Positions 2,653-3,146 of a stretch of 64,000 nt of DNA are shown one piece after another; position 1 is the first letter of the stretch; the number at the start of each line of letters is the position of its first letter. The translations under genes were made by a program, and so were the position numbers. Source of the stretch: Gloeomargaritales cyanobacterium VI4D9. Lineage in GTDB: Bacteria; Cyanobacteriota; Cyanobacteriia; Gloeomargaritales; Gloeomargaritaceae. The notes beneath the pieces are model-generated. The model did not search any database, was not told the origin of the DNA, and worked only from the letters and a program-made list of their open reading frames with translations. The DNA is taken from NCBI GenBank assembly GCA_927797885.1, contig OV696605.1:2331157-2395156 (forward strand), written 5' to 3'.

Positions 2653-2913
2653 TCACTGGTAAATGTTGCGACGGTGACCAATTTTGATGACTAAAACGAC
2701 TAACTTTTCATCTTCCAAAGAGTAGATGATACGGTAGTCTCCGACTCGTATCCGTAAGCGGCCATCCCCATTTTTTAGCTTTTTGCTGTCTGGGGGATAA
2801 GGATTCTCCCGCAAGGCTTCAATTTTTAGGGCAATTCGCTGTTGAATGTCCTTGGGCAGTTTGCTAAGCTCCTTTCTTGCCGTTTTCAAAAACTCAATTT
2901 GGTAATGGCTCAC
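2653..2913 (-). CDS. RelE/ParE-family toxin inside the cas operon
   Basis: An 86-residue protein with the full RelE/ParE fold signature: N-terminal [20 protein letters not shown] helices, then [18 protein letters not shown] and the terminal [14 protein letters not shown] strand. Members cleave ribosome-bound mRNA or poison gyrase; which applies is not decidable here. Its ATG overlaps the antitoxin stop by 4 bp (ATGA-type), implying translational coupling, and it ends 6 bp before the cas5 start. The gene order antitoxin then toxin is the usual one for RelBE-like pairs. Length and motifs look intact with no frameshift. Its position between cas7 and cas5, on the same strand and with no gaps, means it is very probably co-transcribed with Cascade genes. 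Confidence 0.88.
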
Positions 2914-3146
2914 AGGTTTAGCTCCTGTTTTACTTCTTCCCAGGGAATACGTTGCTGGTTCTCAGGGTCAGATTCGGCGACAATGGCATCTCTGACATCC
3001 AGCAAATCTTCTAATTCCTCTGCATCAATGACTGCTAGTTTGCCTTGGCTTATCCAGGTCAGCAGTTCTTCTACAGACAAGTTGAACTGCTGAGCCAAAG
3101 CCGAGATACCTGCAAAAACTTCACTAGAAACGATGAGAGAACTCAT
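2910..3146 (-). CDS. Antitoxin partner of the RelE-like toxin
   Basis: A 78-residue acidic protein directly upstream of the RelE-like toxin and overlapping it by 4 bp. The N-terminal half ([20 protein letters not shown]) looks like a small DNA-binding or dimerisation domain. The C-terminal tail has the [17 protein letters not shown] pattern common to RelB/YefM/Phd-type antitoxins, whose acidic helix wraps the toxin. I start it at the ATG at 3146; an in-frame TTG at 3161 is possible. It lies 17 bp after the cas7 stop. Antitoxins of this kind usually repress their own operon, so here it could also influence the flanking cas genes; that is inference. The exact antitoxin family was not recognised. 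Confidence 0.75.

Follow-up and report, generated by a model that had tools for sequence, protein, structure and literature searches.

CRISPR operons are easily lost, and it is still an open question what retains them in genomes; the device known for it, CreTA, is based on RNA. The locus described here raises the question of what a toxin–antitoxin (TA) pair of two proteins does inside the effector part of such an operon. It lies in a stretch of 64,000 nucleotides from Gloeomargaritales cyanobacterium VI4D9 (contig OV696605.1), referred to below as the window. A preliminary description of this DNA had placed an intact RelE-type toxin and its antitoxin between cas7 and cas5, all on one strand, and this is confirmed by the open reading frames and by the match of the toxin to PF05016. 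The reported gaps of 17 bp between antitoxin and cas7 and of 6 bp between toxin and cas5 are also correct. The 4-nt overlap of antitoxin and toxin, given as ATGA, is actually GTGA.

On the minus strand, the genes follow each other in the order cas6, cas3, cas8a1, cas7, antitoxin, toxin, cas5 and cas4-cas1, then cas2 and a CRISPR array (Table 1). The operon had been called Myxan/Dev-like, in agreement with the match of its cas genes to type I-B MYXAN models. Cas6/Cmx6, Cas3, Cas8a1/Cmx1, Cas7/DevR, Cas5/DevS, Cas4-Cas1, Cas2 and the array are all present, as expected for type I-B (MYXAN). A CRISPR-associated transposon (I-B2, with Tn7-like genes and no cas3) was ruled out by the presence of a cas3 with HD and helicase domains.

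Two further features lie in the neighbourhood of the operon. Upstream of cas6, where most relatives carry a WYL regulator, the window has apparent gene fragments instead, namely apparent broken pieces of aroA and perhaps the N-terminus of ffh, in different frames. In addition, a tandem 32-bp repeat with an inner palindrome (TGTTTGGTCGACCAAACA) is found near a large primase/helicase-like gene; repeat and gene, located beside the CRISPR array, are possibly part of an integrated replicon.

Table 1. Positions of the operon genes, the TA pair, neighbouring features and the TA-derived inserts of related operons (L numbers designate loci)
Feature	Location	Strand	Remarks
cas6 (Cmx6)	window 7824..8483	-	TIGR02807, E=1e-49
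cas3 (HD + helicase)	window 5609..7873	-	TIGR01587, TIGR01596
cas8a1 (Cmx1/Csx13)	window 4079..5602	-	TIGR03485, E=2e-37
cas7 (DevR/Cst2 family)	window 3164..4024	-	TIGR02585, E=5e-35
Antitoxin gene	window 2910..3146	-	78 aa; RelB-like C-terminus, probable ribbon-helix-helix N-terminus; ORF call
RelE/ParE-family toxin gene	window 2653..2913	-	86 aa, GTG start, intact; predicted mRNA interferase; PF05016
cas5 (Cmx5/DevS)	window 1969..2646	-	TIGR02586, E=4e-29, under the model's curated cutoff; PADLOC Cas5b, E=4e-51
cas4-cas1 fusion (MYXAN)	window 124..1806	-	TIGR03983, E=4e-166
CRISPR array	L101 9230-11800		about 35 repeats of 36 nt, after cas2, just outside the window
Apparent gene fragments upstream of cas6	window 8700-9450	-
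Tandem 32-bp repeat	L101 5875-5938
RelBE insert at cas7-cas5	window, L037, L040, L044, L053, L039, L056, L104
Degraded RelBE insert at cas7-cas5	L038
PIN-domain (VapC-like) toxin + small partner at cas7-cas5	L103, L047, L113		L113: plasmid3 of Synechococcus NIES-970
MNT/HEPN insert at cas7-cas5	L102, L049		L102: window's own genus; L049: truncated toxin
DUF433/DUF5615 + orphan RelB at cas7-cas5	L042
MNT/HEPN before cas6	L109, L110		55 and 1 bp upstream of cas6
HicBA before cas6	L135 836-1247		Synechocystis PCC 6714 pSYLB; 12 bp upstream of cas6

The toxin matches the Pfam ParE/RelE family with E=8e-15 and resembles the solved RelE toxins 2khe, 3g5o, 4v7k and 4fxe, as judged by phmmer; with the NCBIfam model RelE_StbE it scores 27.2, slightly under the cutoff of 27.9. 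In an alignment to E. coli RelE chains, arginines occupy the positions equivalent to K52, K54 and R61, and R81 is kept. In the E. coli protein, these are positions of catalytic basic residues. The antitoxin had no match in Pfam, NCBIfam or PADLOC models, and PADLOC does not recognise the pair. Its AlphaFold model is all-helical (pLDDT 81), and the fold matches of this model are weak and non-significant, mostly to ribbon-helix-helix (RHH) antitoxins. Homologues of the antitoxin adjoin RelE toxins in at least 10 other loci, cas and non-cas, which indicates a conserved pair. With a toxin homologous to RelE/ParE that carries basic residues at the catalytic positions, and an antitoxin that lies directly upstream, overlaps it and is conserved with it, the pair has the make-up of a type II RelBE module. 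It shares toxin family, antitoxin–toxin order, 4-nt overlap and size with the RelBE/ParDE superfamily (PF05016; solved RelE 4v7k, 4fxe, 2khe), but differs in its location inside a cas effector operon, where space for a promoter of its own is missing, and in an antitoxin that belongs to no curated family.

Relatives of the operon were gathered through Cas7 and not through the toxin, so that the sample is unbiased towards TAs. It comprises 43 distinct cyanobacterial operons with a readable cas7-cas5 junction, all from the close Cas7 clade, in which identity is 66% or more. An insert of at least 390 bp was present at this junction in 15 of the 43, and all 15 inserts are TA-derived and oriented as the operon; a non-TA gene was found there in none of the 43. 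In 19 of the 28 remaining operons the cas7 stop and the cas5 start overlap as TAATG, presumably the ancestral form of the junction. The insert families, which include NTP_transf_2/HepT-like, RelE, PIN and DUF433/DUF5615, are mutually unrelated. The window antitoxin itself belongs to a rare family, found at 22 places in 18 of 386 cyanobacterial genomes, and 4 of the 22 places are cas7-cas5 junctions. Taken with the 15 inserts among 43 operons, this frequency indicates that TAs occur at the junction more than by chance. In a remoter I-B clade, with Cas7 identity of about 45%, no TA was seen at cas7-cas5 in the loci read and no convincing gene inside the gaps of 120-300 bp.

A comparison of this kind had been proposed in the preliminary description, which suggested that the pair may make cells dependent on Cascade expression, may tie the loss of Cascade to death or dormancy, or may allow the antitoxin to regulate the operon. 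It shows that operons from several further cyanobacterial families carry this pair between cas7 and cas5 too. The recurrence of unrelated TA families at one junction fits the dependence idea better than a single case would, and overall the earlier interpretation is partly supported.

Is the cas7-cas5 junction special within these operons? The other junctions carry mainly non-TA cargo (Uma2, DUF559, DUF29 and unknown small ORFs), with Uma2, DUF29, a papain-fold toxin and others at the cas5/cas4-1 junction. Few TA genes were found among them: MNT/HEPN and a ParE-like ORF in L055, and an orphan antitoxin-like ORF in L104. Comparison of TA and non-TA inserts at cas7-cas5 and at the other junctions by Fisher's test gave a rough p of about 3e-8, or 1e-4 when independent events only were counted, these counts being approximate since the small ORFs at the other junctions are only partly identified. 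A second TA position is the operon head, directly before cas6. The operons with a TA there (L109, L110 and L135) have none at cas7-cas5, as though each operon took only a single TA. The type I-B MYXAN operon on pSYLB of Synechocystis PCC 6714, related in gene order, is such a case: its HicBA pair precedes cas6 and, in contrast to the window, the TA is at the operon head and not at cas7-cas5.

Some further cargo of these operons may be mentioned. A DUF559 (Vsr-like) gene lies between cas8 and cas7 in three relatives (L037, L041 and L108). A small ORF of about 85-112 aa recurs between cas3 and cas8 (L040, L048, L107 and L108), without a Pfam match in L040, and is possibly an unknown accessory gene. 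Between cas5 and cas4-cas1 of L109 and L051, a Tox-PL-2 papain-fold toxin-like ORF is followed by an unknown partner ORF, together a possible further toxin/immunity pair in the operon.

The embedded RelBE copies form two lineages. A single clade was rejected (p-AU 0.002), which rules out one ancestral RelBE insertion behind all of them. The five window-like copies are compatible with one clade (p 0.33) and may represent one. On the Cas7+Cas5 tree a minimum of 11 changes between five states is needed, and both PIN and MNT/HEPN have at least two origins; L047 (PIN) stands beside the empty L006, and L049 (MNT/HEPN) beside the empty L050. This tree must be read with care because the operons recombine. 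Even with unlimited recombination, four unrelated TA families and two RelBE lineages call for no fewer than five independent insertions, and seven or more probably occurred.

Embedding is tight. Upstream gaps of the embedded RelBE copies range from -4 to 38 bp and downstream gaps do not exceed 18 bp, compared to 47-389 bp upstream for seven members of this family at other sites; L053 and L039 have an antitoxin start that overlaps the cas7 stop. With such short upstream gaps, room for an own promoter outside cas7 is lost, and the difference from the copies elsewhere suggests that the embedded ones probably rely on the cas transcript. A promoter or terminator belonging to the window pair was also sought. 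Nothing above chance was found, including minus-strand promoter-like sites near the pair, although the test is a weak one. Both TA genes are maintained by purifying selection, as judged by dN/dS values of 0.05-0.18 for the antitoxin and 0.09-0.20 for the toxin where these could be estimated.

These data bear on two outcomes that the preliminary description had named as fatal to its view. Inactivation of the toxin is not observed: the gene is intact, with dN/dS of about 0.09-0.20 where estimable. The other was a pair absent elsewhere and separately transcribed; its first part fails, the pair being present in other families, and as to the second, the gaps are too short to hold a promoter of the pair's own outside cas7.

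The inserts also appear to move with their flanks. The window and L037 are about 99% identical over some 350-400 bp that span the end of cas7 and the start of the antitoxin gene, against about 77% in the surrounding DNA; for L037, chimeric metagenome assembly has to be kept in mind as a possible cause. From the last part of cas8 across cas7 and the TA, L039 and L053 are mostly 94-100% identical, and identity drops to about 70-80% inside cas5. The L037 and L053 tracts look like the result of homologous recombination with the flanking cas genes as arms. Within the genus of the window, comparison of 124-8483 with L102 at the protein level gave 94% identity for cas4-cas1 and 54-76% for cas6, cas3, cas8, cas7 and cas5. 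Judged from these identities, the effector module was swapped together with its TA, and the adaptation module (cas4-1, vertical) retained. The RelBE family is also found at genomic sites outside cas operons.

Several inserts have decayed. Both RelBE genes are damaged in L038. In L049 the nucleotidyltransferase is kept and HepT is shortened to 45 aa. L042 has lost RelE, kept the old RelB antitoxin and gained a new pair (DUF433/DUF5615). Here (L042 8864-9942, and also in L137), the first 28 codons (84 bp) of cas5 are duplicated after cas7 and followed by DUF433, DUF5615, the orphan RelB and a full cas5, possibly the fossil of a TA insertion that displaced an older TA. L136 carries a 51-bp remnant, the end of which resembles the 3′ end of RelE plus spacer; this is suggestive of a deletion scar, which we consider probable. 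The cas7 and cas5 reading frames are open beside the decayed TAs of L042, L049, L038 and L136. Loss of the toxin first is expected of an addictive pair. Toxin-first decay and the probable scar show that the tie between TA and operon can be broken and that an operon can be kept without an intact pair. A link between a broken cas7 and absence of the TA was considered for L052, L054, L088 and L089, all TA-less with a broken or incomplete cas7, and rejected, the cases being too few and MAG sequencing errors likely.

What then maintains TA pairs at this position? The explanation that we favour, with chances that we judge evenly balanced, is an exchangeable addiction or guard cassette made of protein: a type II TA incorporated into the type I-B effector operon, where it would hold cells to the CRISPR effector module. 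The RelB-like antitoxin and the RelE-family RNase would share a transcript with cas7 and cas5, probably with translational coupling as well. The junction would act as a recurrent docking site into which TA families with RNase-type toxins insert and where they replace one another, cassettes passing between species through homologous recombination in the flanking cas genes. Supply of a labile antitoxin would depend on ongoing transcription of the cas operon. Should the effector operon be lost, replaced or shut off, the stable toxin would be freed and the cell arrested; any equivalent TA could take over as guard. Several observations count against this reading. Twenty-eight of the 43 operons have no TA at the junction and most of their cas genes are seemingly fine, and cas genes are kept beside the decayed TAs of L038, L049 and L042 and the L136 scar. 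The same RelBE family occurs elsewhere in genomes, purifying selection is also expected of a purely selfish TA, and inactivating the toxin first offers a way out of a TA placed mid-operon.

The main rival is selfish hitch-hiking, in which the junction simply tolerates small co-oriented cassettes, exact cas7:cas5 coupling being dispensable, and a TA once in is hard to remove, with no gain for CRISPR. The mobility of these TA families elsewhere in genomes, the decayed and scarred copies beside intact cas genes, the spread of cassettes by flank recombination and the commoner TA-less state all speak for it. Yet tolerance alone would not lead one to expect the complete lack of non-TA genes at cas7-cas5 when neighbouring junctions take Uma2, DUF559, DUF29 and others. 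That this position has repeatedly passed from one TA to a different one is better understood if selection for a TA there recurs, and the loss of own-promoter space also argues against a merely selfish passenger. We regard this explanation as less likely than not, yet as a serious contender.

Somewhat doubtful as well is a role as abortive-infection back-up, in which phage transcription shut-off or an anti-CRISPR would stop antitoxin synthesis and free the RNase, leading to dormancy when CRISPR fails. The inserted toxins all belong to families known or predicted to be RNases, the spacing is suggestive of co-transcription, and a coupling of immunity and dormancy has been published for toxins in CRISPR loci (PMC3506569). 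However, such a trigger is generic to any unstable antitoxin and does not need this position. Such a response to transcription shut-off could operate under the guard reading as well as under the selfish one.

Regulation is improbable. RHH antitoxins usually autoregulate, and the antitoxin, probably of this fold and weakly resembling RHH repressors and antitoxins in its model, or the TA complex, could bind DNA and tune the operon; alternatively, mRNA cutting by RelE could adjust cas7:cas5 ratios. Against this, the PIN, MNT/HEPN and DUF433/5615 replacements are not expected to share a DNA-binding part, and no promoter-like site above chance accompanies the pair. The mutual replacement of unrelated TAs makes a specific role in regulation unlikely. 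An RNA guard like CreTA, with Cascade repressing the toxin through a CRISPR-like guide, is suggested by the type I-B host system and the location within a cas locus but is highly improbable, given that the module encodes two proteins, one of them its own antitoxin, and that the defining repeat-like guide was not found: in window 1-9500 no CreA/CreR-type ectopic repeat rose above shuffled controls, the best resemblance to the CRISPR repeat being 20/36 against 20-23 for shuffles.

CreTA, the type VIII, CRISPR-regulated TA RNA guard (PMC9458426), is nonetheless a close parallel to the guard reading, in that a TA device in a type I-B cas locus makes (for the window, is proposed to make) its host depend on the effector, with very diverse toxins. 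It differs in being all-RNA, with Cascade as the repressor guided by CRISPR-like repeats; the window pair consists of two proteins with a cognate antitoxin and lacks an ectopic repeat, and dependence would run through co-transcription. The toxin-like RNases of CRISPR-Cas loci (Csm6/Csx1 CARF-HEPN/RelE/PIN; PMC3506569) come from the same RNase superfamilies and likewise replace one another. In most cases they lie in type III loci, are activated by a ligand and have no antitoxin, in contrast to the complete pair inside a type I effector operon described here. No description of a TA pair between cas7 and cas5 was found in searches of freely accessible journal papers. A keyword search of a December 2025 review of TA–CRISPR coupling (PMC12737573) likewise gave nothing about protein TA pairs within cas operons, and nothing of the kind came from the 2025 classification (PMC12669027) or from a review of type I systems in cyanobacteria published in the same year (PMC11903412).

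Taken together, the guard reading can be extended to a broader proposal, which we put forward tentatively and hold to be somewhat short of an even chance. The cas7-cas5 junction of cyanobacterial type I-B operons may be a standing socket for swappable protein TA guards, where selection repeatedly welds whichever RNase-type TA is available into the effector transcript, making the effector module addictive and resistant to loss or replacement. It would be a convergent protein counterpart of CreTA, drawn from at least four TA families. Several unrelated TAs in one place, together with natural TA-less, decayed and scarred alleles, make the guard, dormancy and selfish hypotheses directly testable in isogenic operons. 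If true, the repeated independent recruitment of protein TA pairs to one effector-operon junction would go against the general statement in the literature that typical antitoxins are missing from immunity systems, and would represent a second, convergent solution to the keeping of CRISPR operons.
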